Shown: positions 9,543 through 30,184 of the stretch, in pieces
Position numbering within the stretch: position 1 is the stretch's first letter
Layout of the letters: each line of letters starts with the position of its first letter
NCBI GenBank assembly: GCA_027532555.1
Contig: JAPZTJ010000046.1
Span: 1-51,091, forward strand
DNA length: 51,091 nt
Direction of reading: 5' to 3'
DNA from: Aquidulcibacter sp.
GTDB lineage: Bacteria > Pseudomonadota > Alphaproteobacteria > Caulobacterales > Aquidulcibacteraceae
Notes under the pieces: generated by a model
Databases searched by the model: none
Told to the model about the DNA's origin: nothing
What the model saw: only the letters and a program-made list of their open reading frames with translations
Position numbers and translations under genes: made by a program

Positions 9543-12239
9543 TTAGTAACGCACCCGCACCCCAAACATGAACCGGCGGCCAAAATACTCTAGCTCATAG
9601 GGTTGCGCTAGAGTCCCTTGATAACGCAATCCGCGCTCATTGGTGAGATTGTTGATATCTGCGTAGAGGGTCACATGGTCAGTCAATTGATACCGGCCTG
9701 AGAATTCTACGCGCTGTTGGGCATCCCAGGATAAGTCACCCGCTGCTGCACCTGGCGAGATTTCATCGAGCCATTCCGTGCGGTGCTGCCAAGCCAAGCG
9801 CAGGGAGAAGCCATACTTTTCATAAAAGATAGCGGCTTGAGTAATCCGATCCGAGGTGCCGGTGAACGCACTCTTGCGGCCACTGCCAATATCGAATTCA
9901 CCATCAAGAAACGCGACACTGGCCTGAACGCCTAAGCCAGACAAGGCACCGGGCAAGAAGGTGAAGGGGTGGTTGTAGGCAAACTCCACGCCTTGAAGAT
10001 AACCGTCGCCGCCATTCAATGTTGTGTTGTAGGTATAGCTTGACCGATCTACGCCGTTGGAGTTGAACCGGCCATCGCCAACCAATTCTGAGGCGTCAAA
10101 CAAGACATCTTTCACGTTGCGATAAAAGTAAGACGCCGAGAGAAGTGAGGCTGGCGCAAAGTACCATTCCGCACTTAAGTCGCCACCAATCGCGCTCTCT
10201 GCCTTCAAGTTTGGATTGCCCCCGGTGATCGATTGTACGCCCGCGACATCAATAATCGACACAGTGGCGCGTTGATCGGTGAAGCTTGGACGGGCTGCAC
10301 CACTGATCAGAGCGGCGCGAAGTTTTACGTCATCCGAGAAGTCATACGTATAATGCAGGCTTGGCATATATTGCATATCATCGCTGGACAAGGATAGTGG
10401 GACCAAGGACGTTCCTACTTGGGCCAGACCTTTTGCCGTGACTTCTGATTGCTCCACCCGCAAGCCAGCAAGCAAGGTGTGGCGATCCCATTTCCACGTG
10501 TTCTGCACATAAAGTGCAGTGACATCTTCATCGACAGTATTGGCCAGGGCCGGATTGCGGCGTGGCACGGGGAAGGTGCCTCCCGCGCTTGCGTTGGCAA
10601 GTTCAGCTGCAGCAATCACAGCCTCCAATTGTTGGTTGAGGGCTACGTTGTCGATGAAGAATGACTGAAAGCCAACATTAATGCTGCCGATTGCGGACTC
10701 TTGCGTGACAAACGCATAGGGCGTCCAGGGCACGCCTAATTGCTGCGCAGTTGTCCCCAGAATAAGTGTGCCGGCCGTGCCATTGGGTCGCAATACTGCC
10801 CAATTGCCTGGGTCTTCAAAGCTACGTGTATTGTATTGAAAGCCGACTTTAAACTTCGCGTCAGCACCAAGGCTCGACCATTCGCGGGTTAAATCGCCCT
10901 TAGCAAACGTGTCGGTTTGTTCGTTCAACACCCGGAAGAGCGCCAAGACTTCGGTGTTAAACGCGGTTTGGTCCAAGGTGGCACGCGCCGTTGTTCCGCG
11001 ACTTAACACGCCAGTTGGGCTGCGTAAGGTGTCATAGAGGGTGATGCGCGGCGTTCCAGCTTCCCCAGCCGTAAATGTCAAAGAGGGACGCAAGGCTGAA
11101 TTTGACTGCGAGGTTGCGGTTAGAGGAAGATTGGAAACAGATTCTGCTTCAGATGTCCCCAAATCCCAAGATAGGTTCCATCCGCCAATGTCATGCTCGC
11201 CATGCAGGATATAGAGCAAGTTCTTGGTTGCGTAATCACCATCTTCAAAGAGACCGGCGACAGGAACGGCGATCAGATCTCCGCTGGTAGCTGTCCGCGA
11301 ACCTGCAATATTTCCGTTTGCGGCGTTACGGAAGTTAAATGTATATTGGTTGCGCTCTTCAAAATCGAGGAATTCGCTATAAAGTGCGGTAAAGCGGAGC
11401 AAGTTTTGCTCGTTTGGACGCCACTCCAGCTTTCCATTGAGCGCGTTGGTTTCCCGCTTAATGCGGTACTTTGCAAAGCGCACTTCCCGCATCGCACCCG
11501 GATTTGCTTGGGTTGCATCTTTTGGATCAAACCGCGGCTCATAATTGTCGGTATCTTGGATGAAGGTGAATGACGATGCACCCAGCATCACCCCGAACGT
11601 GTCGTTTGCCCACGACAGGCGCAAACCGTAATTGGCGGCTTCTTTTCCAAGGTCGACATAGCCTTGGCCAATATCTAAATTGGCGTGAAGCCCTTGGTTC
11701 GACAAAGGCGAGAAGGTGCGGATGTTTACCCGGCCAGCCAAAGCTTCTGCCGGCATGTCTGGTGTCAGCGTTTTATTGAGTTCGAGTTGCGAAATCACAG
11801 TTGAAGGAACGCTGTCAAACCGGAAGATACGATCCTCGGCACCAAGAATGTTCACGCCATCAAAGGCAACTGTTGTCCAGCGGGCAGGGGCGCCGCGCAC
11901 CTGAATATACCGCTCCTGACCTTGGTCACGCTGGACACCAGTGGCTGGCAGACGGGACAAAGCCGCAGCTGCGGTTTGGTCTGGAAAGCGTCCGATGGTA
12001 TCGGCGGCGATCACATTGACAATGTTGTCTGCTGCACGCTGAACTTGGAGCGACTTGGCAATAGAATCTCTGATCGGCGTCGCGGTCACAACGATAGTCT
12101 CAACCGCCTGCTCGGGCTCTGGTTGCGTAGGGCTTGATTGTCCCATTGCCACATCTGCCAGAAAAAGCGGCAGGATGCTTGCGCTCACAAGCCAAAGGAA
12201 GCGTTGGTTCGCGCGAACACAATTATAATTAGCTGGCAT
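9543..12239 (-). CDS. TonB-dependent receptor (TIGR01782-like), last gene of the aminophosphonate locus
   Basis: An 898-residue receptor. The ATG at 12239 is chosen over a GTG at 12269 because it has an AGGGGA ribosome site at good spacing and starts directly before the signal peptide (...FLADVAMGQ). The plug contains GRFPDQTAAAALSRLP and RYIQVRGAP, characteristic of the TonB-Xanth-Caul receptor group common in Xanthomonas, Caulobacter and sphingomonads. The C-terminus ends in an aromatic residue (GVRVRY). It is on the same strand as, and about 220 bases downstream of, phnX, so it may be co-transcribed or have its own promoter. By position it is a candidate outer-membrane port for the substrate handled by the oxidase and PhnX; that is inference. 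Confidence 0.88.
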   Translation of the reverse strand: MPANYNCVRANQRFLWLVSASILPLFLADVAMGQSSPTQPEPEQAVETIVVTATPIRDSIAKSLQVQRAADNIVNVIAADTIGRFPDQTAAAALSRLPATGVQRDQGQERYIQVRGAPARWTTVAFDGVNILGAEDRIFRFDSVPSTVISQLELNKTLTPDMPAEALAGRVNIRTFSPLSNQGLHANLDIGQGYVDLGKEAANYGLRLSWANDTFGVMLGASSFTFIQDTDNYEPRFDPKDATQANPGAMREVRFAKYRIKRETNALNGKLEWRPNEQNLLRFTALYSEFLDFEERNQYTFNFRNAANGNIAGSRTATSGDLIAVPVAGLFEDGDYATKNLLYILHGEHDIGGWNLSWDLGTSEAESVSNLPLTATSQSNSALRPSLTFTAGEAGTPRITLYDTLRSPTGVLSRGTTARATLDQTAFNTEVLALFRVLNEQTDTFAKGDLTREWSSLGADAKFKVGFQYNTRSFEDPGNWAVLRPNGTAGTLILGTTAQQLGVPWTPYAFVTQESAIGSINVGFQSFFIDNVALNQQLEAVIAAAELANASAGGTFPVPRRNPALANTVDEDVTALYVQNTWKWDRHTLLAGLRVEQSEVTAKGLAQVGTSLVPLSLSSDDMQYMPSLHYTYDFSDDVKLRAALISGAARPSFTDQRATVSIIDVAGVQSITGGNPNLKAESAIGGDLSAEWYFAPASLLSASYFYRNVKDVLFDASELVGDGRFNSNGVDRSSYTYNTTLNGGDGYLQGVEFAYNHPFTFLPGALSGLGVQASVAFLDGEFDIGSGRKSAFTGTSDRITQAAIFYEKYGFSLRLAWQHRTEWLDEISPGAAAGDLSWDAQQRVEFSGRYQLTDHVTLYADINNLTNERGLRYQGTLAQPYELEYFGRRFMFGVRVRY

Positions 12240-12461
12240 ATCTGATCCCCTATGCGTGCCGATAAGCACACCCTCGAGAGGATAGGGGGCGGTTTCTTCG
12301 CTACTTTGACGGAAAAATGAAGTTTCAGTTATCGAATTTCTGAACTTTCGTTGCAGAGTTAGTCTTTTCGATCAAATACATTTGGTATTTGTTCTGATGT
12401 CTTACAGGAGAGCGTTTCGGCTCGGGCTTGTCGCGCGCAAAAGCCTGACGACCCCGCTAGA

Positions 12462-13307
12462 CTAGCCCGTCACAGAGTGATGGAGAAGCGACGGTGCAGC
12501 CCCTGGCGTCAGGCCTTTAGCGATAGCGGCTTCGATGGATCCCAGTACTCCCGGCAAGTCAGCGATGGTGGCGATGACAAAATCGGCACCCGCTTCGACA
12601 AAATCAACAGAGGCTGACTTTAGCATTTCGGCTCGTGTCGTTGGATCAAGTGCGTCATAAGCTGCTTCATCAAGACCAAGGGCATTGCCAGACCCTGCTA
12701 ATCCAACCGTCCACATCCCCGCCTCGCGACCTGCAATTATACCAACAGGGGCATCATCAACCGCAACACAAGTCCGCGCAGGCCAGACACCGAGATTGAT
12801 CATGGCTTGCCACAACATGAGCGGGGCAGGTCTGCCCTCGCTGGTATCGCCAGCGCATAAAATGGTTTGGGGGTGATAGCCTTGGTCGGCGGCCAGCCGC
12901 ACAACTTCCGCCATCATGGTGTGCGTGTAGCCTGTGGATGATCCAATTTTGATGCCAGAGGCGATGAGACCTTCAAATACCGCCTTGGCTCCGGGGATTA
13001 ATTTGCTCGCCTTGGCTGCTTCGCGCGCCATGGCTGGCTCTAGTTCGATCATGAGAGCGTCTGCCTCAGCCTCCCCCGGGTGGGAGCCTTTGGCTTTGAT
13101 CCAACGCGAGCTCACCTCTTCATCGGCAAACATGGACATCACGTGGTCGCGCTTGGCTTTACCCATGTGCGCGCGCACCGAAGCCTCGCTTACTTCAACG
13201 CCACAGACGCGGAATGCTGACTGCATCGCCATCACTGGTGCGCGTGAGCCAAAGTCCACCATGGTGCCAGCCCAGTCGAAAAACACGGCTTTGATTTGGT
13301 TCTTCAT
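12462..13307 (-). CDS. phnX: Phosphonoacetaldehyde hydrolase (phosphonatase)
   Basis: A 281-residue HAD-superfamily enzyme that cleaves the C-P bond of phosphonoacetaldehyde to acetaldehyde and phosphate. The N-terminal FFDWAGT carries the nucleophile Asp11. The cap-domain segment AHMGKAKRDHV aligns with the Met-Gly-x-x-Lys-x-Asp-His region of known PhnX, placing the Schiff-base lysine at Lys52 and the helper His at 55. AVDDAPVGI supplies the later HAD acidic motif. Length matches the family (about 265-280). Its ATG overlaps the stop codon of the upstream FAD oxidase by four bases (ATGA), so the two are translated together. Together they give a route from an aminophosphonate to usable phosphate. 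Confidence 0.93.
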   Translation of the reverse strand: MKNQIKAVFFDWAGTMVDFGSRAPVMAMQSAFRVCGVEVSEASVRAHMGKAKRDHVMSMFADEEVSSRWIKAKGSHPGEAEADALMIELEPAMAREAAKASKLIPGAKAVFEGLIASGIKIGSSTGYTHTMMAEVVRLAADQGYHPQTILCAGDTSEGRPAPLMLWQAMINLGVWPARTCVAVDDAPVGIIAGREAGMWTVGLAGSGNALGLDEAAYDALDPTTRAEMLKSASVDFVEAGADFVIATIADLPGVLGSIEAAIAKGLTPGAAPSLLHHSVTG

Positions 13308-14434
13308 TGTAATGCCTCCCGAACAACGCGCTCGCCAATTGCGAACGCCGTTGACATCCCCGCCCCACTGGTCACGACACTTAAGCGCACCTCGGGTTCA
13401 GGCGTTTCGACAAACCATTGCTGGTCAGAAGATGATGCATAGGTGCCGACCCAGCGTTCGATGACGGGCGGAACCGTGCCCGCAAATACGCTGGCAAATT
13501 CGTCCAAAATCAAATTCTCAAAGTCGATCCTCGCAAACGGATTTTCAGCCTGCCCATAGACATGACTATCGCCCACAACCAAGGAGCCATCGCCGCTTTG
13601 AACCGCGATCAGATGTACGCCCGCAGCCAAATGCGCGCTCTGCTCTGCATGCAATTTTGCCGCGAGAGCCTCGATTCCAGGTAATTGCGAATAGCCGCGA
13701 TACCGCAGCAAACCGAGGTCTGACATAAAGGCGTGGGGCAATTGATAGCCTGGGGCCGCCAAACGCAACATCTGAAGTGTGCATCGCGTCACCCCACGCT
13801 GCGCCATCACATCGGGGTATAGGGTTGAAAGATCATCGCCTGGACAAACAAAGACAATGTCGCTCTGAAAGACACCACGCGACGTGGTGACTTTCCCGCC
13901 TTCAATCGCGTGAACGCTGGTGAGGGTTTCAAAGCGGACGCCAAATGCACTTTTGAGCCAAGATGCAATCGCGCTTAATGCCGTTCGGGGCTCCACCCGC
14001 ACTTCATGAGGGCTGACAAGAACACTCTCAAACTGATTGAGGTCTAGTGTTGAATGGCTTCTTTTGAAGGCTTCGCCCGTAACGAGTTCGCATCCTTCGC
14101 CCATTTCGGTTGCCATAAAGGCCTCTAAAACAGCGCTTGCCTCTGGTCGCTTTGCCACCATGGCCAAGCCGCGGTGCAAAATTGGAATTTGGGCAGCTTC
14201 TGCGACTTCAGCCCAGATATCGCGGGCACGTAGCGCTAAGCCCCAAAAATCGCCGCGCTCCTGTCCGGTGATTGTCACAAATCCGAAATTCCGCACGCTA
14301 GCACCCACTGCATGGGGCTGGCGGTCTATAATTGTAACGCTTTTGCCAAGTTTGGCCGCCGCAAGGGCATGGGCTAACCCAACAATCCCCATTCCAACGA
14401 CGATGACATCGCTGGTGCGATCAGAAACAGTCAT
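13304..14434 (-). CDS. FAD-dependent aminophosphonate oxidase, TIGR03364-like (PbfC/PbfD-type)
   Basis: A 376-residue DAO/glycine-oxidase-fold flavoenzyme. The ATG at 14434 has AAGGA seven bases upstream and is followed by the dinucleotide-binding motif VGMGIVGLAHA and an acidic strand end (TIIDR). The sequence fits the TIGR03364 group, which recurs beside phosphonate catabolism genes. Published work on these recurrent FAD enzymes shows that some oxidise N-methyl-2-aminoethylphosphonate, and sometimes 2-aminoethylphosphonate itself, directly to phosphonoacetaldehyde, replacing transaminase PhnW. Here it overlaps phnX by four bases and no phnW is present in the window, which fits that role. 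The exact substrate is inferred. A 179-base gap separates it from the TRAP genes and may hold an internal promoter. Confidence 0.82.
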   Translation of the reverse strand: MTVSDRTSDVIVVGMGIVGLAHALAAAKLGKSVTIIDRQPHAVGASVRNFGFVTITGQERGDFWGLALRARDIWAEVAEAAQIPILHRGLAMVAKRPEASAVLEAFMATEMGEGCELVTGEAFKRSHSTLDLNQFESVLVSPHEVRVEPRTALSAIASWLKSAFGVRFETLTSVHAIEGGKVTTSRGVFQSDIVFVCPGDDLSTLYPDVMAQRGVTRCTLQMLRLAAPGYQLPHAFMSDLGLLRYRGYSQLPGIEALAAKLHAEQSAHLAAGVHLIAVQSGDGSLVVGDSHVYGQAENPFARIDFENLILDEFASVFAGTVPPVIERWVGTYASSSDQQWFVETPEPEVRLSVVTSGAGMSTAFAIGERVVREALQ

Positions 14435-14613
14435 TTCATTGTCCTTAGCGCGTGGATACAATTGCAGGCGTGCATGTAAATGGAACAAGCCTGCGCTTCA
14501 ACATAGCCATTATCAGCAGTCTCCATCCGATAGCCCAACTTATGCGGCTAGAATGGTACATCGGTCGCTAAGTGTTGCCGAGAAAATTAGGAAGACTGTC
14601 GCCACCCCGTTCC

Positions 14614-16191
14614 TTATCGGTACAACAGATTGGGTAGCCACGTTGCCAAGCTTGGGATGAACCAAATCAAGGCAACAGCAAGGAGCTGTAAGCCGATGAA
14701 GGGTATAACGCCGCGATAAATGTCCAAGGTTTTGACTTCTGGCGGGGCTACGCCGCGCAAGTAGAACAGGGCAAAGCCAAATGGTGGGGTCAAGAAGGAC
14801 GTTTGCAAGACCATCGCCATCATCACCGCCAACCAAATCGGATCAGCGCCCATCACAATCAGTGGCACCGCTACCAGTGGCACGACAACAAAACAGATTT
14901 CGATAAAGTCGAGAAAAAATCCTAAGATAAACATGACGACAAATGTGAACAGTAGCGCTCCGGTCAAGCCACCTGGAACAGCTTCAAGCATCCCTTCGAC
15001 CCACTCATCGCCACCAAGCCCCCGGAATACCAAGGTGAATAGCGCCGCACCAATCAGGATCGTAAACACCATCGCATTGATGTCGGCGGTAGATTTTAAT
15101 GCTGGGCCAAGCGACCTCGCCTTGTGCAGGGTCCAAAGTCCTGCGATCACAGCTGCACCCGCAAACAGGCTCAATGTCACCGAAACAATCAACACAAGCT
15201 GGCCCGAGAAACTAGGCTGCGCCGTGAGGCTTGGGATGTCGATAAACAAGCGAAAGGCGACCAAGAGTGCCAACGCGGCAGCACCAACCAATATGACCCG
15301 CACCAGAAAACTGCGCGGCCTGCCTGCGTCTTGTTCGATCCGTTGACCTGCGAGCATGGCGGCCCCCGCAGCGCCAACCGCAGCCCCTTCGGTTGCGGTT
15401 GCAATGCCGGCAAGAATGGAACCGAGAACGGCTAAGATCAGTAATAAGGGGGCCAACAAAGCTTGGATCACCCGCGACAATTTGGGGTACTCGCCGCCTG
15501 CAGCAGGAGCTGCCTTAGGCTGGGTCCAGGCAATGAAGACTTGGTAAAGCAGATAGAGCCCAACTAAAACGAGGCCGGGAATAATCGCCCCAGCAAACAA
15601 ATCACCCACAGAAACGGCTTCGCCGCCTGACTTGCCCATTTCAATCTGCGCGCGCTGATTGGCATTGCCAATGACATCGCCCAGCAAGATCAAAACAATG
15701 GATGGGGGTATGATCTGACCCAGTGTTCCAGATGCCGCGATCGAGCCGGTCGCGATTTTCACATCATAGCCGCGCGCCAACATAGCCGGCAAAGCCAACA
15801 GGCCCATTGTGACCACCGTGGCCCCTACAACACCGGTCGAGGCCGCCAAAAGCGCGCCCACAAGTGTGGTGGAGTACAACAAGCCACCGCGAAATCGCCC
15901 AAATAGGTCACCCATGGTCGTCAATAGGTCTTCGGCAATCCGGGAACGTTCTAAAATCACTCCCATCAACACGAACAGCGGCACCGCAGTGAGCGTCGCA
16001 TTTCCCATTGTGCCAAACACACGTTGGGGGAAGGCGGCAAAGTAAGAGGGTTGAAACACGCCAAGTGCCATGCCCAGAAGCCCGAAAGCCAGAGCCACAC
16101 CTGCCAACGTAAAAGCCACCGGATAACCCATCATCAAAGCGATGATGAGGGTCAGAAACATGGCAATGTCTAAAATCCCGTGCAGGTCCAT
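14614..16191 (-). CDS. TRAP transporter large permease subunit (DctM type)
   Basis: A 525-residue integral membrane protein with at least twelve hydrophobic segments, including the TRAP large-subunit signatures GATVVTMGLLALPAML and SGTLGQIIPPSIVLILLGDVIG. This is the Na+-coupled channel subunit that receives solute from the periplasmic binding protein. It is larger than the usual roughly 430 residues because of extra central segments, as in 2-oxoacid (Tak-type) TRAP permeases. The ATG at 16191 lies three bases after the DctQ stop. P, Q and M are in the standard order on the minus strand and lead into the FAD oxidase-phnX pair. Confidence 0.92.
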   Translation of the reverse strand: MDLHGILDIAMFLTLIIALMMGYPVAFTLAGVALAFGLLGMALGVFQPSYFAAFPQRVFGTMGNATLTAVPLFVLMGVILERSRIAEDLLTTMGDLFGRFRGGLLYSTTLVGALLAASTGVVGATVVTMGLLALPAMLARGYDVKIATGSIAASGTLGQIIPPSIVLILLGDVIGNANQRAQIEMGKSGGEAVSVGDLFAGAIIPGLVLVGLYLLYQVFIAWTQPKAAPAAGGEYPKLSRVIQALLAPLLLILAVLGSILAGIATATEGAAVGAAGAAMLAGQRIEQDAGRPRSFLVRVILVGAAALALLVAFRLFIDIPSLTAQPSFSGQLVLIVSVTLSLFAGAAVIAGLWTLHKARSLGPALKSTADINAMVFTILIGAALFTLVFRGLGGDEWVEGMLEAVPGGLTGALLFTFVVMFILGFFLDFIEICFVVVPLVAVPLIVMGADPIWLAVMMAMVLQTSFLTPPFGFALFYLRGVAPPEVKTLDIYRGVIPFIGLQLLAVALIWFIPSLATWLPNLLYR

Positions 16192-16194
16192 CTG

Positions 16195-16857
16195 TTACGG
16201 CCCCACATGGTGATCTGATGAGGCAGAGTCCAACGCTTCAAGCCCGCGCCAGCGCAGGGCAGCGTGTCCTGCATGGGCCACGCCTGCCATCAGCATGGTG
16301 ACAGCAAAGATTGGCATGGCCGTCTTTAAGAGGAACACAAATGGCAATCCGTCTGTCTCTGGACTCTTCTCGCCGATGCGCCAAGCCAACTCGACAACCG
16401 GGCCGCTATAAATCAGCAATAGCAACATCACCGGGGCCAACAGCAGGCAAAAGCCGATTAGATCCAATAAGGCCTTTGTTCGTTCGCTGACTTGCTCATA
16501 GACAATATCCACTCGAACATGCGCATTCGTAATTAAGGCGACAGGTGCCGCCATCAGAAAGCCAAGTGCGTGGGCATACATCACGGTTTCATTGAGACGG
16601 GTGAAGCTCTCGCCAAAAATATAGCGCAGCAGCACGGTTGTCAGCATTCCAAACGCCAACACAAGCAAGCATACTTGGGCAAAACGGCCGAGCCACGTTG
16701 CGATATCCTCGGCAACCCCATTCAAAACCCGCTGGACTTGCGCCGCAGGCTCACCCCAGATTGCTGTGGCGACTGGCGCAAACAAAAAGGGTGACAATCC
16801 GCCAAGAATGACGACGGCTATCGCCCCAAGGGGCTCGCCTAAAACCTGCGGACTCAT
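16195..16857 (-). CDS. TRAP transporter small permease subunit (DctQ type)
   Basis: A 220-residue inner-membrane protein with about four to five hydrophobic helices. It contains the conserved DctQ-type features: a second helix followed by SFTRLNETVMYAHALGF, and the NAHVRVDIVYE stretch with a conserved His-Val-Arg-Val-Asp. It pairs with DctM to form the transporter. Its ATG overlaps the stop of the upstream binding-protein gene by four bases (ATGA), and the DctM start follows three bases after its own stop, so the three are one translational unit. Confidence 0.9.
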   Translation of the reverse strand: MSPQVLGEPLGAIAVVILGGLSPFLFAPVATAIWGEPAAQVQRVLNGVAEDIATWLGRFAQVCLLVLAFGMLTTVLLRYIFGESFTRLNETVMYAHALGFLMAAPVALITNAHVRVDIVYEQVSERTKALLDLIGFCLLLAPVMLLLLIYSGPVVELAWRIGEKSPETDGLPFVFLLKTAMPIFAVTMLMAGVAHAGHAALRWRGLEALDSASSDHHVGP

Positions 16858-18008
16858 GGGGCACCAAGGTTCAAATTGCGTGTGCGTTCAGCGAGGTAAA
16901 TCCCTTCAGCTTCTTCACTCCAAGGTCGCATGGCACGGTAGGCCTTAAGCCAGCTTTGATAAATGCGGCCAGCCAGCGGGTCAGCGGCACCTGCCTCAGC
17001 CCACATGACTTGGGCAATTTTGGCAGCTTCCTTCAAAACATCGTCGGGTAGGCGGCGCAACGTGACCCCGTGTTGGGCCTTCATCGCTTCCATGGCCACG
17101 CCGTTTTGATAGGTAAATTCGCCAATCGAAATGGCATAGCTTTCCCGGCAGGCCGCACGCAGGATTTCTTGATGGACTTGGGAGAGTTTATCAAACCTTC
17201 CCTTGTTGACGCCCACCGCCAAGGTCGCGCCCGGTTCTTGCAGGCCTGGCGCGTAATAATAGGGGGCCTCGCGATAAAAGCCTAAGCCAATGTCATTCCA
17301 AGGCCCAACAAACTCCGCCGCATCAATCACACCAGATTGTAGCGCTTGATAAATTTCCCCGCCGGGCATCGCCACAGCAGCGCCACCCAATCGCCGGATC
17401 ATTTCCCCGCCAATGCCAGGAATCCGCATTTTGAGGCCTTTGAGGTCCGCCAAGCTTTTGATCTCGCGCTTGAACCAGCCGCCCGCCTGATGACAGGTGT
17501 TTGCCGCCGCCATCGGCACAATGCCAAAACCCGCCGCCAATTCTTCCCATAAAGCTTGGCCACCGCCATGGTCGAGCCAGCCCATTTGCTCCATAGCTGT
17601 CATGCCGAAGGGGACAGCCGTAAAAAACGGATAGGCAGGGTTTTTGCCCTGCCAATAATAATCGGCTGAATGGTAGAGGTCGGCGGAGCCTGTCGCGACA
17701 GCATCAAATACTTCAAAGGCACCAACCAATTCGCCTGCCGCATAAACTTTGATATCCAGCGTGCCGCCTGATAACGCCAGCGCACGTTGTGAGATACGCT
17801 CTGCGCTCATGCCCAAACCAGGCATGCCTTTGGGCCAAGAGGTGACCATATTTAGCCGGACCGCCCCAGCAACCGCGCCTTGTGCAGCCGTTGTGCCCAG
17901 TGCCGTGGCACCCGCTCCGGCACCTGCAACGCGCGCCGCAGCAATGCCTGCGCCAGCACCCGATAGAGTGCCAATCGCTACCGCTGTGACCAAAGTTCGC
18001 CGATCCAT
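16854..18008 (-). CDS. TRAP transporter solute-binding protein (TakP-like)
   Basis: A 384-residue periplasmic binding protein. It begins MDRRTLVTAVAIG, a twin-arginine-like export signal, followed by an Ala/Gly-rich stretch. The mature part has the DctP-family landmarks: MVTSWPKGMPG near the N-terminus, LKMRIPGIGGEMIRRLGG with the ligand-binding arginine, and AAEFVGPWNDIGLGFY. These resemble TakP, which binds 2-oxoacids as a cation complex. The family hint is therefore an oxoacid or similar anion, while the neighbours (FAD oxidase, PhnX) suggest an aminophosphonate or a phosphono-oxoacid; the ligand is open. The ATG at 18008 has an AGGGGA ribosome site. It is the first gene of the minus-strand locus. 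Confidence 0.9.
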   Translation of the reverse strand: MDRRTLVTAVAIGTLSGAGAGIAAARVAGAGAGATALGTTAAQGAVAGAVRLNMVTSWPKGMPGLGMSAERISQRALALSGGTLDIKVYAAGELVGAFEVFDAVATGSADLYHSADYYWQGKNPAYPFFTAVPFGMTAMEQMGWLDHGGGQALWEELAAGFGIVPMAAANTCHQAGGWFKREIKSLADLKGLKMRIPGIGGEMIRRLGGAAVAMPGGEIYQALQSGVIDAAEFVGPWNDIGLGFYREAPYYYAPGLQEPGATLAVGVNKGRFDKLSQVHQEILRAACRESYAISIGEFTYQNGVAMEAMKAQHGVTLRRLPDDVLKEAAKIAQVMWAEAGAADPLAGRIYQSWLKAYRAMRPWSEEAEGIYLAERTRNLNLGAP

Positions 18009-20002: not shown

Positions 20003-21361
20003 CTAAGGTTTTACCCTGAAGTCACTCAGAGCGATATTAAGCCGCTTCACTTTGTCGTAAAAGGTCTTGCGGGGGAGGCCTAAGGAGGCAATCGCCGTTT
20101 GAATGTCGCCTCCAACCTCCTGCAAGGTCTGTTCAATGAAGGCCTTTTCAAACTCGGCTACCCGCGCCTTTAGGCTATCAGAGGCTGGGACTGGCTCGGC
20201 GCGCGGCGAGGCCAATTTTCCATCCCATAGACCCAAGACATTCTGCTCGGCAAAGTTCTGCAGCTCCCGCACATTTCCGGGCCAGTCGTAACTTCTCAAA
20301 TAACGGTAAACCTCTGGCGTAAGGGCTGAAGGTTTGCGCCCAAAGCGCTTGGCAGCTTGATCAAGGAATAAGCCATAGAGGAGGGGGATATCCTCCCGCC
20401 GCTGGCGTAAGGGCGGTATCTTCAGAGTTAGACTATTGAGGCGGAAAAGCAGGGTTGGGAAGAAGCTGCCTTCCTGCACACGCTCGGTTAGTTGGGTGGA
20501 GCTGGCGGCCACAATGCGAGCATCAAAGGGTCTGGATTGATTGGCCCCGAGGGGTGTTACCTCCCGCACTTCCAAAGCGCGGTGCAGCTTCTGCTGCACC
20601 TTCATCGGTGCGGCATCAATGGCGTCCAAGAAGAGTGTACTCTTATTCGCCAGTTCAAGACGCCCAATGCGTGTCTTATAAGCTGCCGGATAGGCACCTT
20701 GGGCAACGCCAAACAACTCCTCATCGAGCAGCGCGTCGGGGATCGCACCGCAATCGATGGTGACCATCTGTCTTCGGCTACGATTGCTTTGTGCATGCAG
20801 CATGGCCGCAACAAGGCTTTTGCCCGTTCCGGTTTCGCCTTCAATCAACACGTCGACATCAATCTCAGCCACTTGGGCGATTGTTCGACGAAGAGCGGTA
20901 ATGGCACTCGAATTTCCATATAGGGGGCCGCCCTCAACGGCATCAGAACGGGAGTCGCGCAGCTGCCTGACCTCCAACGTCAATGCTCTGCGTTCCAATG
21001 CCCGTTGAGCGGTCAACACCAATTGTTCCGGCAAAAACGGCTTAGACAGAAAATCATAAGCACCTTGGCGGACGGCATTGACCGCTGTTGCAATGTCGGA
21101 GTGGCCGGAGACCAAGATGACCGGCACGTCGGGATCAATTTCTTTGACGCGACGAAAGAGCTCAAGCCCATCCATGCCGGGCATGCGTAAGTCGCAGACG
21201 ACTATGCCATCGAAGCTGTTTGAGAAAGCGGCCAAACCTGCCTCGGCAGAGCTGAACGCGTGCACTTTGAACCCGGCCAGTTGTAAGCTTTGCCCATGCG
21301 CGCTCAACACGTCGGTTTCGTCATCGATCAGAAGAATGGAATCCGGTCTTGTAGATGTCAT
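20003..21361 (-). CDS. dctD: DctD-type response regulator with degenerate sigma54-activation motifs
   Basis: A 452-residue regulator: receiver domain (1-120, phosphoacceptor Asp57 in VVCDLRMPG), AAA+ domain (about 150-380) and a Fis-type helix-turn-helix at the C-terminus (about 400-445). Walker A is intact (GETGTGKS, 175-182). Two hallmark elements are not: the GAFTGA loop that contacts sigma54 reads GAYPAA (222-227), and the Walker B FLDEI reads FLDAI, so the catalytic Glu is Ala247. The FRLN and WPGNVREL stretches are kept. It overlaps dctB by four bases and is divergent from dctA, so it is the dct regulator by context. It probably binds DNA in a phosphorylation-dependent way but is unlikely to power sigma54 open-complex formation. 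Confidence 0.88.
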   Translation of the reverse strand: MTSTRPDSILLIDDETDVLSAHGQSLQLAGFKVHAFSSAEAGLAAFSNSFDGIVVCDLRMPGMDGLELFRRVKEIDPDVPVILVSGHSDIATAVNAVRQGAYDFLSKPFLPEQLVLTAQRALERRALTLEVRQLRDSRSDAVEGGPLYGNSSAITALRRTIAQVAEIDVDVLIEGETGTGKSLVAAMLHAQSNRSRRQMVTIDCGAIPDALLDEELFGVAQGAYPAAYKTRIGRLELANKSTLFLDAIDAAPMKVQQKLHRALEVREVTPLGANQSRPFDARIVAASSTQLTERVQEGSFFPTLLFRLNSLTLKIPPLRQRREDIPLLYGLFLDQAAKRFGRKPSALTPEVYRYLRSYDWPGNVRELQNFAEQNVLGLWDGKLASPRAEPVPASDSLKARVAEFEKAFIEQTLQEVGGDIQTAIASLGLPRKTFYDKVKRLNIALSDFRVKP

Positions 21362-23040
21362 GCGGCAAGCCTTAAGCGCATGACAAAGGCTGCGCCTGTT
21401 TCTGGGGTGGCAGCAACGAGTTCGCCGCCAAAGTCTGCCATAATGTCCCGCGAGATCACCAGGCCAAGGCCGAGCCCATCGCGCTTGGTTGTTGAGAAGG
21501 GCTGAAACAAGGATTCACGCATCTCTATCGAAAGGCCTGGGCCGTTGTCGGCAACCGTCAACTCAACAAACCCATCTTTCAGCTCAATCGAAAGGGTGAT
21601 TTCGACGCCATTTTGTCCTGCGTCTAAGGCATTGGCCATCAGATTGACCAAAACTTGTTCCAGACGCACCGCCTCCGCTTGGACGAGGGCATCATCCTTC
21701 GGTTGATGCACGACAGCATTCAAAGTTGCGATCCGATCGCGCAGTAAGAGCAGGGCACCTTCGATCACTTCATTGAGGCTGACAGCCGTGATGGTCCCTG
21801 TCGCTTTGCGGGCAAACCCTAAGAGTTCAGCTGTGATGGCACCAATGCGGGAGGCTAAGCCGATCACCCGGTTCAGATTGTCGCGGACAGCATCGGTCTG
21901 GCCACGATCCAAGAAGGTCACGGCATTACTGGTATAGGCGGATATGGCAGCCAGAGGCTGGTTAATCTCGTGGCCAACACCTGCAGCAATTTGACCTAGA
22001 GCCGCAAGTTTATTGAGCTGAACCAATCGCTCGCTCATGTCGCGTTGTTGGATCGCGAGATTGCGCTCCGCCCTAAAGGCGGCACTACGACGTAAATACA
22101 TCATCGCAAGACCCAGCGCGAACAAGGCGAGCAAGCTAGCAAGCACACTGATCCGACTAGATGCCACTGCGACTCGAATGCTTTCTTGGCTCTCCGTCAG
22201 CACATGCAATTGCCAGTCATTGGTGAGCTGTTTGACTGCCTCAGCATATTTTTTTGACGCGATGTCTGCATCCTTGAAGGTACCAACTTGACCTTGTTGA
22301 TAGATCGGCAGCACCTCGAGCGGATTGACCCCATAGTCGAGATCACGCAACATTTTATTCTGAATTGCTTTGCTCAACGGTTGGACCGTTTTGAACCGCC
22401 AATCGCGGTTGCTGGTAATTAGAATGACGCCGTTGGCATTGGTCGCAAACACCGTCACCCCTGCTTTGCGCCATTCGGCTTCTAGATTGTCAAATTCCAC
22501 TTTTGAGACAATGACGCCAATAGGCTTCCCACCTGCTTGCAATTGGCGCGCAATATAAAGGCCCGGACGTCGGGAAACCGTTCCTAAGGCGAATTGTTCG
22601 AAATGCCCGGTGCGGAGTGCTTCCCGGAAATAGGGTCTAAAGCCGTAATTCTGTCCAACGAAAGTCTCAGGTCTGGTATAATTGCTCGAAGCCAGCGTGA
22701 GTCCCTTTAGGTCAAGAAGATAGATGGCTGCAGCCCCCATGTCGCGACTGAGCGCTTCGAGTTTCTTGTTGAAAGCGCCAAGCCTTTCACCATCATCGCC
22801 CGCGAGGACCGCACGTGCATCGGCATCTTGGGCGAGCACCAGCGTTGCCAAGCGAAAACGCTCGTGTTCCCGCTCTAAGGCCGAAGCGAGGAGCTCAGCG
22901 GAAACGTCGCCGCGCTTGCCTGCCTCGGCTACAGCACGATTGCGAGCAATGTTATCTGAGAACACAAAGCTGGCGGCAATCAGCAGGAGACCTGCCAAAA
23001 GGGTTGCAGCGACTACCAGCCTCGAAGTCGGTTTTCCCAT
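21358..23040 (-). CDS. dctB: Sensor histidine kinase, DctB-type
   Basis: About 560 residues. The ATG at 23040 (MGKPTSRLVV) is preferred over a TTG at 23055 because of a GGGGAA ribosome site. Layout: an N-terminal membrane helix, a periplasmic double-PAS-like sensor (about 35-270; GQNYGFRPYFREAL is the typical dicarboxylate-sensor loop), a second membrane helix, then HisKA with the phosphoacceptor in GVGHEINQPLAAI and a HATPase_c domain (N-box NLMANALDA, G1 VADNGPGL, G2 DGLGLGLV). In rhizobia DctB senses C4-dicarboxylates and phosphorylates DctD. It is upstream of, and overlaps, dctD (ATGA). Its start lies about 45 bases from the operators shared with dctA. Confidence 0.9.
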   Translation of the reverse strand: MGKPTSRLVVAATLLAGLLLIAASFVFSDNIARNRAVAEAGKRGDVSAELLASALEREHERFRLATLVLAQDADARAVLAGDDGERLGAFNKKLEALSRDMGAAAIYLLDLKGLTLASSNYTRPETFVGQNYGFRPYFREALRTGHFEQFALGTVSRRPGLYIARQLQAGGKPIGVIVSKVEFDNLEAEWRKAGVTVFATNANGVILITSNRDWRFKTVQPLSKAIQNKMLRDLDYGVNPLEVLPIYQQGQVGTFKDADIASKKYAEAVKQLTNDWQLHVLTESQESIRVAVASSRISVLASLLALFALGLAMMYLRRSAAFRAERNLAIQQRDMSERLVQLNKLAALGQIAAGVGHEINQPLAAISAYTSNAVTFLDRGQTDAVRDNLNRVIGLASRIGAITAELLGFARKATGTITAVSLNEVIEGALLLLRDRIATLNAVVHQPKDDALVQAEAVRLEQVLVNLMANALDAGQNGVEITLSIELKDGFVELTVADNGPGLSIEMRESLFQPFSTTKRDGLGLGLVISRDIMADFGGELVAATPETGAAFVMRLRLAA

Positions 23041-23082
23041 TCGCGCGTTCCCCAAGCCCGTACCGGCATTTCATCCGTGGTG

Positions 23083-23130: not shown

Positions 23131-23234
23131 TTTATCAATGCGATTCAAATAACCAAATGATTTAAATACATTTTCTTTTTCGTGGATTGAATTTTACCTC
23201 CCAAAGGAATGTAGCTAACTTTCTACCAAATACG

Positions 23235-24647
23235 ATGGCGATAAGTCACTCGACAAACCTATGGGGAAATGCCTTGGCCATCAGCCAACCAATTGCGAGC
23301 GGGTCTAGTGTTTCCACCTCTAAGCCAGTGGCTTGGTACCAACAGCTTTATACCCAAGTGGTGATTGCTGTTGTCCTTGGCATTGCCATTGGTGCGATTT
23401 TCCCAAGCTTCGGTGCAAGCTTAAAGCCCCTAGGTGATGCCTTCATCAATCTGGTGAAGATGATCATCGCACCCGTCATTTTCCTGACAGTTGTGACGGG
23501 CCTAGGCGGCATGTCGCAAGTCAACAAGATCGGGAGTGTGTTTGGCAAAGCTTTGGCCTATTTTTTGGCCGTCTCTACCTTTGCGCTCGTCATTGGTCTG
23601 ATTGTTGGCAATTTGGTCCAACCAGGCGCAGGCATGAATATCGACCCCGCGACACTCGATGGGAAGCTCGTTGAGAATTACACCCAACGTGCGCACGAGC
23701 AGAGCCTCTTGGGCTTTGTTATGAACATCATTCCAAAGACGCCGATCAGTGCTTTAGCCGAAGGCGAAATCTTGCAAGTGCTGTTGATTGCGGTGCTAAC
23801 AGGGATCGCCATCGCCGCAGTGGGCGAGCCCGCCCGGCCGCTCTTGACTGTGTTGGAGGCTGCGAACCAAGTCGTTTTCAAACTGGTTCATATGCTGATG
23901 AAACTGGCACCCATTGGTGCCTTTGGTGCCATGGCCTTCACAATTGGCAAGTTCGGCGTGGCAAGCCTTATCAGCCTCGGCTCGCTCATCATTACTTTCT
24001 ACGTCACCTCGCTGCTGTTCGTCATCGTCGTGCTAGGCTTGATTGCGAAATTGGCTGGCTTCTCTATTTTCCAACTCGTCCGCTATATCAAAGACGAGCT
24101 TTTGCTCGTGCTTGGTACATCCTCTTCTGAGGCCGCGCTGCCGACCTTGATGGAGAAGCTCGAACGGGCAGGGTGCCGGAAAGAAGTCGTCGGCATTGTT
24201 TTGCCGACGGGCTATTCTTTCAATCTGGATGGAACCAACATCTATATGACCTTGGCGGCGACCTTCATTGCCCAAGCTGTTGGGATTGACCTTTCGCTGC
24301 ATGACCAGCTTCTTTTGATTGGCGTAGCGGCCATCAGCTCCAAGGGGGCAGCAGGCGTCACGGGTGCCGGTTTTGTGATTTTGGCAGCGACCTTGTCGGT
24401 TGTACCGTCGGTCCCAGTAGCTGGCATGGCGCTAATCTTGGGGATTGACCGATTCATGAGTGAGTGCCGCGCTTTGACGAACCTGATGGGCAATGCCGTT
24501 GCAACCATTGTTGTATCGCGTTGGGAAGGCGCTTTGGATGAAGCCCAGCTAAAGCAAGCGCTATCTTCAACCAGTAATTCACAGCCGAGCTTGCAAAGCA
24601 CCGCTGCGGCAAACAACTTAAATCCGGCGACCATTGATGTCGACTAA
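23235..24647 (+). CDS. dctA: C4-dicarboxylate:cation symporter DctA
   Basis: About 470 residues from the ATG at 23235; a TTG at 23187 in the same frame is an alternative, and neither has an ideally spaced ribosome site (AAAGGA lies at about 23203). The sequence carries the family signatures: the serine-rich [16 protein letters not shown] reentrant loop, [20 protein letters not shown], and the closing [25 protein letters not shown], which match DctA more closely than GltP. It imports succinate, fumarate, malate or similar acids with H+/Na+. It is divergent from dctBD and followed after 33 bases by a TonB receptor, with which it may share a transcript. Confidence 0.9.
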
Positions 24648-28858: not shown

Positions 28859-30184
28859 ATGAAGCGACTCAAAGCTAATCTAGGCTGTTTCTTCAGACTG
28901 CTTTTGACGCTGGCGCTACTATGTTGTGTCGTTCGTCCGGCCGCCGCTGCAACAGCTAGAGACCAACCAACGCCAACCCCTTGCCCGGCGTTTCTACCGA
29001 GTGAGACCCAATGCTTCACGGGCAAGTCCAGCGCCGGTGCGCCTTTCTTCATTGCTATTCCAAGGAACTGGAACCAGAACCTGATCCTGTTCGCCCATGG
29101 TGGTCCGCGCCTTGGGGCACCGAAATTGGCGGAGACGGTCGAGGACCTAGAGCGCTTTCAAATGATGGTGTCTGAAGGCTATGCGTGGGCTGGCACCACC
29201 TATCGACGGGGTGGCTATGGTGTAAGGTCTGCCGCCGAGGACATGGACCAGCTGCGCACTTTGACGTGGCAACATTTTGGAAGACCAAAGCACACCATCC
29301 TGCATGGGCAATCCTGGGGTGGAAATGTTGCTGCAAAGGCGGCCGAGCTTTATGCGATGGATCTTGAAGGTAAGCGCAATTTTGATGGCGTGGTGCTGAC
29401 CAGTGGGGTCTTGGCTGGGGGCACGAAAGCCTATCGGCTGCGGTCCGACTTACGGGCGGTCTATCACTATTATTGTCGCAACCACCCAAGACCGAGTGAG
29501 GCCCAATACCCGCTCTGGCAGGGCTTGCCCGCTGGTGCTTCCATGACACGTGCCGAGTTGGCCGAGCGCGTGCGCGAATGCACGGGTGTCGGGACCCCGG
29601 CAGCACAGCGAACTGCGATGCAAAAGGCCAAGCTTCGCAACATCACAAGGGTTCTTTCAATCAAGGAAGACCAAATCCTCCCCAATCTGGCTTGGGCAAC
29701 CAATACGTTTCAGGACATGATTGGTCGCCTGAATGGACGCAATCCATTTTCGAACTATGGCGTGGTTTACGAAGGTTCTGACAATGATCGAGCCTTGAAT
29801 GCGGGTGTGGAACGCTTTGCGGCAGATCCGATCGCTGTCGCAGAACTCGCCTATGATAGTGATCTGAGCGGCTTGATCGTCGCGCCGGTCATCACCGTTC
29901 ATGGCATTCATGATCCGGTCGCACCTGTCTCCCATGAAACTGCCTATCGACGCACCATTGAAGGGGCTGGTCGTGGTGACCTGTTAGTGCAGAGCTTTAC
30001 CGACGAAGCGGAGCATAGCCGCCTAAGCGTGCCGGCCTACCCAAGCATCTTTAGTGCGTTGATGAAGTGGATCGACACAGGACAAAAGCCTACCCAAGAG
30101 AGCATTAAGGCAGCATGTCCAAAGTTTGCCGAAAAATACCGCGAGCCGTGCTTGTTTGTCGTGCCTTTTTCACCTGAACCTTAA
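28859..30184 (+). CDS. Exported alpha/beta hydrolase, Cys-rich
   Basis: A 441-residue protein with a Sec signal peptide (basic start MKRLKANLG, hydrophobic core, cut near ...RPAAAA). Catalytic elements: HGQSWGGN (nucleophile Ser), HGIHDPVAP (acid) and DEAEHSRL (His), in the alpha/beta-hydrolase order. It has several cysteines near both ends of the mature protein (TPCPAF, TQCFTG, YYCRNH, RECTGV, KAACPKF, REPCLF), suggesting disulfides in the periplasm. The large insert between Ser and Asp could form a lid. It lies 32 bases behind the first hydrolase and is convergent with the antiporter gene. The family is recognised only at superfamily level, and the substrate is unknown. Confidence 0.78.
   Translation: MKRLKANLGCFFRLLLTLALLCCVVRPAAAATARDQPTPTPCPAFLPSETQCFTGKSSAGAPFFIAIPRNWNQNLILFAHGGPRLGAPKLAETVEDLERFQMMVSEGYAWAGTTYRRGGYGVRSAAEDMDQLRTLTWQHFGRPKHTILHGQSWGGNVAAKAAELYAMDLEGKRNFDGVVLTSGVLAGGTKAYRLRSDLRAVYHYYCRNHPRPSEAQYPLWQGLPAGASMTRAELAERVRECTGVGTPAAQRTAMQKAKLRNITRVLSIKEDQILPNLAWATNTFQDMIGRLNGRNPFSNYGVVYEGSDNDRALNAGVERFAADPIAVAELAYDSDLSGLIVAPVITVHGIHDPVAPVSHETAYRRTIEGAGRGDLLVQSFTDEAEHSRLSVPAYPSIFSALMKWIDTGQKPTQESIKAACPKFAEKYREPCLFVVPFSPEP

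Follow-up and report, generated by a model that had tools for sequence, protein, structure and literature searches.

PbfD-type enzymes convert N-methyl-aminoethylphosphonate (N-methyl-AEP) into phosphonoacetaldehyde. One of them, PbfD2, also oxidises aminoethylphosphonate (AEP) itself, about 4-fold more slowly than the methylated compound; the genes have been published together with phnX alone, without phnW, and identity among the enzymes is only about 30% (Zangelmi et al. 2023, iScience, PMC10590968, as far as its accessible text goes). On the transport side, AepP is a GlpT-related permease of the major facilitator superfamily (MFS) for AEP (Murphy et al. 2021, PMC8316502, accessible text), and in the literature accessible in full or in part no inner-membrane transporter of the PhnW-free route was found named. 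This report examines a pbfD–phnX pair of Aquidulcibacter sp. (the host; GCA_027532555.1), which lies behind the genes of a tripartite ATP-independent periplasmic (TRAP) transporter on contig JAPZTJ010000046.1; this stretch, analysed over its full 51,091 nucleotides, is referred to as the window. An earlier note on this DNA proposed that a TonB port and the TRAP transporter replace the usual importers of aminophosphonates. The explanation favoured here, and held with high confidence, is a different one: a PhnW-free PbfD–PhnX pair, an unrelated TRAP transporter that became its neighbour by deletion, and uptake through a DUF5690 protein and/or a PhnCDE importer.

By analogy with characterised relatives, PbfD would use O2 to convert N-methyl-AEP and/or AEP into phosphonoacetaldehyde, from which PhnX would release acetaldehyde and phosphate; PhnW would not be required. 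All enzymatic and transport functions, like the order of events, are read from sequence. The genes follow one another on one strand as the earlier note had described them, from the TRAP genes through an oxidase of family TIGR03364 and an overlapping phnX to a TonB receptor:

16854–18008, minus strand: DctP, TRAP binding protein (PF03480, 166 bits)
16195–16857, minus strand: DctQ, TRAP small permease (PF04290, 56.5 bits)
14614–16191, minus strand: DctM, TRAP large permease (TIGR00786, 272.7 bits; cut-off 268.45)
14438–14613: gap of 176 base pairs (bp) between dctM and pbfD, read as a deletion join with gene remnants
13304–14437, minus strand: PbfD-type oxidoreductase dependent on flavin adenine dinucleotide (FAD) (TIGR03364, 395.8 bits; cut-off 285.1)
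12462–13307, minus strand: PhnX, phosphonoacetaldehyde hydrolase (TIGR01422, 304.1 bits; cut-off 220)
9543–12269, minus strand: TonB-dependent receptor, 3' of phnX (TIGR01782, 514 bits; cut-off 310)

The oxidase, PhnX, DctM and the TonB receptor all score above the curated thresholds set for their families. These gene identities were computed, as were the lack of a PhnW match, the linkage counts, the remnants at the join and the presence of other importers reported below. With dctP, dctQ and dctM side by side, the TRAP transporter gene set is present; pbfD and phnX overlap by 4 bases (13304–13307). For the oxidase, the probable start codon is the ATG at 14437, in preference to a TTG further upstream (14488); dctM is then followed by the 176-bp gap.

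The enzyme pair itself is of a known type. A search of the host genome for PhnW gave no match, which would fit membership in the PbfD2 subgroup. Among 398 genomes of the order, probably Caulobacterales, PbfD (E ≤ 1e-60) and PhnX (E ≤ 1e-50) were found in exactly the same 36, and PhnW exceeded its curated cut-off in none of these; weaker PhnW matches occur in 34 of the 36, the best reaching 144.7 bits where the cut-off is 400.8. PhnX is present in all 35 pbfD loci examined from relatives, stretches of at most about 20 kb of which some are truncated by contig ends; in 34 it lies no more than 100 bp from pbfD, and in the remaining one the distance is about 4 kb. From 565 named relatives of pbfD the 80 best were also examined, a set that partly overlaps with the 35, and PhnX accompanies pbfD in 78 of these 80 named loci. 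The DWAGT segment of PhnX is unchanged in five of five aligned sequences. The window pair is thus a PbfD–PhnX pair of the PhnW-free kind already in print (PMC10590968, accessible text), and the earlier note's suggestion of an oxidase–PhnX route lacking PhnW is borne out. Its further statement that phnW, carbon–phosphorus (C–P) lyase genes and a phosphonate ATP-binding cassette (ABC) transporter are missing holds for the window, and for PhnW throughout the genome; C–P lyase genes and an ABC importer do occur elsewhere in the genome, as described below.

The junction between dctM and pbfD carries the argument about the TRAP transporter. DNA identity between the window and all six dctPQM-bearing congeners (6/6) ends at 14599–14615, i.e. 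at the dctM stop codon, and in congeners dctM is kept without an adjoining pbfD. The nearest congener (G002) also has pbfD, on a contig (C42) that ends inside the gene (window 14498–13971, 91% identity); another of its contigs (C23) begins in the downstream TonB receptor, and phnX falls in the assembly gap. In this congener about 11.4 kb lie between pbfD and dctM, and the genes next to pbfD are a TonB receptor gene (L241 540–3017) followed by a LysR gene (L241 3111–4100), both intact. The best NCBIfam model for the latter is TIGR03339 (phn_lysR, the LysR family of aminoethylphosphonate catabolism), at 208 bits and below the cut-off of 341. Pieces of both genes are found in the host gap, collinear with their intact counterparts:

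14524–14568, plus strand: 45-bp remnant of a LysR-type regulator gene, 93% identical to L241 3502–3546 (E 6e-11; 68.9 bits)
14491–14534, minus strand: 44-bp remnant of a TonB-dependent receptor gene, 91% identical to L241 660–703 (E 4.7e-9; 62.6 bits)

As a control, 200 random 176-bp pieces of the window gave a top score of 59.9 bits and a second of 32.8. Since the host gap holds pieces of genes that are whole in G002, loss in the host is the best explanation, and the adjacency of dctM and pbfD is, on this sequence evidence, a deletion join: DNA with the TonB receptor and LysR genes would have been lost in the host lineage, making dctPQM and pbfD–phnX neighbours.

Several points weigh against this account of the junction. 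The top control score, which equals that of a match between window 29273–29347 and L241, comes near that of the weaker remnant. The cluster of the nearest congener is only partly seen, with pbfD cut off by a contig end and phnX in an assembly gap. Part of its 11.4 kb could be a later insertion in that genome; direct signs of loss concern the LysR and receptor portions now missing, not the whole distance. Finally, a scan of the minus strand of the 176-bp gap gave no terminator-like site, so that read-through from dctPQM into pbfD is possible; no promoter-like site was found there either, and these consensus scans are weak, with counts not much above those in shuffled sequences.

Linkage counts point the same way as the junction. 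No DctP, DctQ or DctM was found near pbfD–phnX in the 35 relatives' loci (E ≤ 1e-5) or in the 80 named loci (E ≤ 1e-4). DctP relatives are widespread in the order (238 of 398 genomes, E ≤ 1e-40). For PbfD and DctP in one genome, chance would predict 21.5 cases and 5 were counted, a deficit confounded by taxonomy, since both vary between families of the order. When 20 TRAP loci drawn from the 238 genomes were inspected, 19 had no pbfD or phnX in the stretch, the pbfD of G002 lying outside its stretch; judged by their translations, the neighbours in the 20 loci are largely housekeeping or unrelated genes. The earlier note had called for a survey of how often such TRAP genes sit beside TIGR03364–phnX, and the answer is that relatives show no such linkage (0/35, 0/80, and about 11.4 kb of separation in the nearest congener), the outcome which it had itself named as speaking against its proposal.

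The binding protein, for its part, resembles 2-oxoacid binders. The closest solved sequence to the window DctP is 7ug8, a ketoacid-binding protein by name (E 2.7e-75), followed by 2hzk (E 6.8e-67), titled SmoM in the PDB and taken here to be TakP; the match covers most of the length of the host protein. The doubt already voiced in the earlier note, that a TakP-like protein might serve a separate role, likewise points away from a TRAP transporter in place of the usual importers. Searches of the open-licence literature found no paper pairing phosphonoacetaldehyde hydrolase with a TRAP transporter, nothing relevant on TRAP transporters, TakP and phosphonate in combination, and, in the accessible parts of PMC11366302, no link between TRAP transporters and AEP. 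The TRAP genes probably encode an independent transporter, separate from pbfD–phnX and most similar in sequence to 2-oxoacid binders; a place for them within the catabolic module is rejected in view of the linkage counts and the deletion join.

The host also has other phosphonate genes. PhnJ is encoded elsewhere in its genome with PhnF, PhnG, PhnH, PhnK, PhnL and PhnM beside it; the gene in the phnI place of this C–P lyase cluster matched no family at E ≤ 1e-20. PhnC and PhnD are fused in one open frame of 634 amino acids, followed by PhnE (contig C63, L133 876–3607), about 6 kb from the host gene for DUF5690. Given these C–P lyase genes and the PhnCDE importer, no replacement of the usual importers is shown. 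In 22 of the 80 named loci there were also matches to PhnCD; being probably ABC ATPases of a general kind, they were left out of the count of phosphonate importers.

For uptake across the inner membrane, DUF5690 (PF18943) is a more likely candidate than the TRAP transporter, judging by gene linkage. Of the 398 genomes 46 have it, among them 34 of the 36 with PbfD (Fisher p 1e-36). In 27 of the 35 relatives' loci its distance from pbfD is at most 5 kb, and in 22 of these 27 at most 2 kb. The structure predicted from 28 sequences has an MFS fold (predicted local distance difference test, pLDDT, 89.8); its best PDB matches are to human G6PT1 (9kv0, E 3e-9), and GlpT (1pw4, E 2e-6) is found among many other MFS proteins. 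The host gene is on contig C63 (L133 9290–10585), the contig that also carries PhnCDE, and inner-membrane uptake of aminophosphonates would more likely proceed through one or both of these than through the TRAP transporter. At the counterpart site of another congener (G004, L013), the order is esterase, pbfD, phnX and DUF5690 (11385–12674). In the host and in G002, pbfD–phnX is absent from this site and the 3' end of phnX survives as a piece of about 50 bp before the DUF5690 gene; this piece is, from its sequence, the trace of a pair lost there. The window pair is of a different lineage, for identity with the G004 proteins is 70% for PbfD and 69% for PhnX, against 94% between the DUF5690 proteins of the host and G004; a simple move of a G004-type pair into the window site is unlikely on the same figures. 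A fragment of a second DUF5690 gene, with an internal stop, is found in G002 (contig C23, L242 13945–14121), near the TonB receptors of the island.

Other observations count against a dedicated role of DUF5690. Co-occurrence is not exclusive, 12 of the 46 DUF5690 genomes being without PbfD; in the control Caulobacter vibrioides DUF5690 is present although neither PbfD nor PhnX exceeds its cut-off; some copies adjoin genes that read like nitrate-assimilation genes; and only 31 of the 80 named pbfD loci contain DUF5690. The case is evenly poised for the more specific proposal, namely that DUF5690 is an importer of AEP and/or N-methyl-AEP, MFS-type and similar to organophosphate antiporters, serving the PhnW-free PbfD–PhnX route in Caulobacterales and Sphingomonadales, and that deletions split this route in the host, so that the importer stayed where it had been and the enzymes now follow an unrelated TRAP operon. 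No paper on DUF5690 was found in the open-licence literature. A gene like the Phn-HD oxygenase (TIGR03276) accompanies DUF5690 in two loci where the stretch holds no pbfD (L144 7668–8201 and L148 8577–9143), scoring above the cut-off in one and below it in the other.

Against this background, it is very improbable that the TRAP transporter, receiving its substrate from the TonB receptor, imports an aminophosphonate or an acidic phosphonate for PbfD and PhnX. Shared strand, the short gap of 176 bp without a terminator-like site inside, and the lack of a second DctP in the host (the window protein is the sole PF03480 match in its genome) would fit such a role, but the linkage is absent from 35/35 relatives' loci and 80/80 named loci, TRAP genes are common without PbfD, remnants of LysR and receptor genes lie at the junction, the solved proteins closest to DctP are named as, or taken to be, binders of 2-oxoacids, and the host has other phosphonate importers. 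A less drastic variant keeps the deletion and gives it a regulatory effect: it would have removed the LysR regulator of the pathway and set pbfD–phnX behind the dctPQM promoter, for expression by read-through, with the TRAP transporter carrying something else. That the LysR and receptor genes were lost at the join, and that no terminator-like or promoter-like site was found on the minus strand of the gap, is consistent with this. So is purifying selection on the 5' part of pbfD, in which the host and G002 share about 91% DNA identity and the ratio of nonsynonymous to synonymous substitution rates (dN/dS) is 0.076 over about 153 codons. The low ratio may, however, date from before the deletion or from the G002 branch alone, and the weakness of the consensus scans tells against the idea; we regard it as possible but doubtful.

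Also very improbable is an oxidase that acts on some other amine, with PhnX nearby for other reasons. The low identity among PbfD enzymes leaves room for it, and the closest solved sequences are sarcosine oxidases, with weak E-values; yet PbfD and PhnX share the same 36 of 398 genomes and are adjacent in the loci examined, the curated TIGR03364 cut-off is passed, and characterised PbfD members yield phosphonoacetaldehyde (PMC10590968, accessible text). A PhnW-free PbfD–PhnX pair beside an unrelated, deletion-joined TRAP transporter is accordingly preferred.

The remaining genes of the region add context. The TonB receptor downstream of phnX is 97.5% identical over 888 amino acids to that of G002 and has a candidate, unproven role in phosphonate uptake; the receptor search scored three candidates per genome, and its absences, that of the host included, are weak. 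Upstream of dctP and on the same strand lie a cytochrome P450 gene and dctD–dctB. The P450 gene (18417–19787) adjoins dctP, is kept there in G002 and is not near dctP in the other 19 TRAP loci examined. DctB–DctD (20003–23055) more naturally regulates a dctA gene (23187–24647), from which dctB is divergently oriented, and is a less likely regulator for the TRAP genes. A scan for the sigma-54 consensus gave no signal (48 matches against 40.8 expected). Foreign composition of the pbfD–phnX stretch was likewise set aside, the GC profile being without a clear step. Phospholipase-C-like phosphoesterases (PF04185, PF05506) lie near pbfD–phnX in 10 of the 35 loci by rough clustering, e.g. at L014 6257–8425, and perhaps release aminophosphonate from phosphonolipids; the clustering used greedy calling of open reading frames and served to choose families, not for counts.

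The tempting claim that TRAP transporters import aminophosphonates is thus left without support: linkage is absent, TRAP genes are widespread without the pathway, remnants mark the junction, and PhnCDE and C–P lyase genes are present in the host. The join shows that close gene neighbours on the same strand can be the product of a deletion. The PbfD–PhnX pair being of known type, the part worth following is DUF5690, a testable importer family for the PhnW-free aminophosphonate route. Like AepP (PMC8316502, accessible text), DUF5690 proteins are predicted to belong to the MFS, with G6PT1 as the best match and GlpT among others; unlike AepP, they form a separate Pfam family (PF18943), to which a transport role is assigned by gene linkage only. 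As in the PbfD2–PhnX clusters (PMC10590968, accessible text), a TIGR03364-type FAD oxidase adjoins phnX in a genome without phnW; unlike in those clusters, the host pair sits behind TRAP genes following a deletion, with the LysR and receptor genes reduced to fragments.

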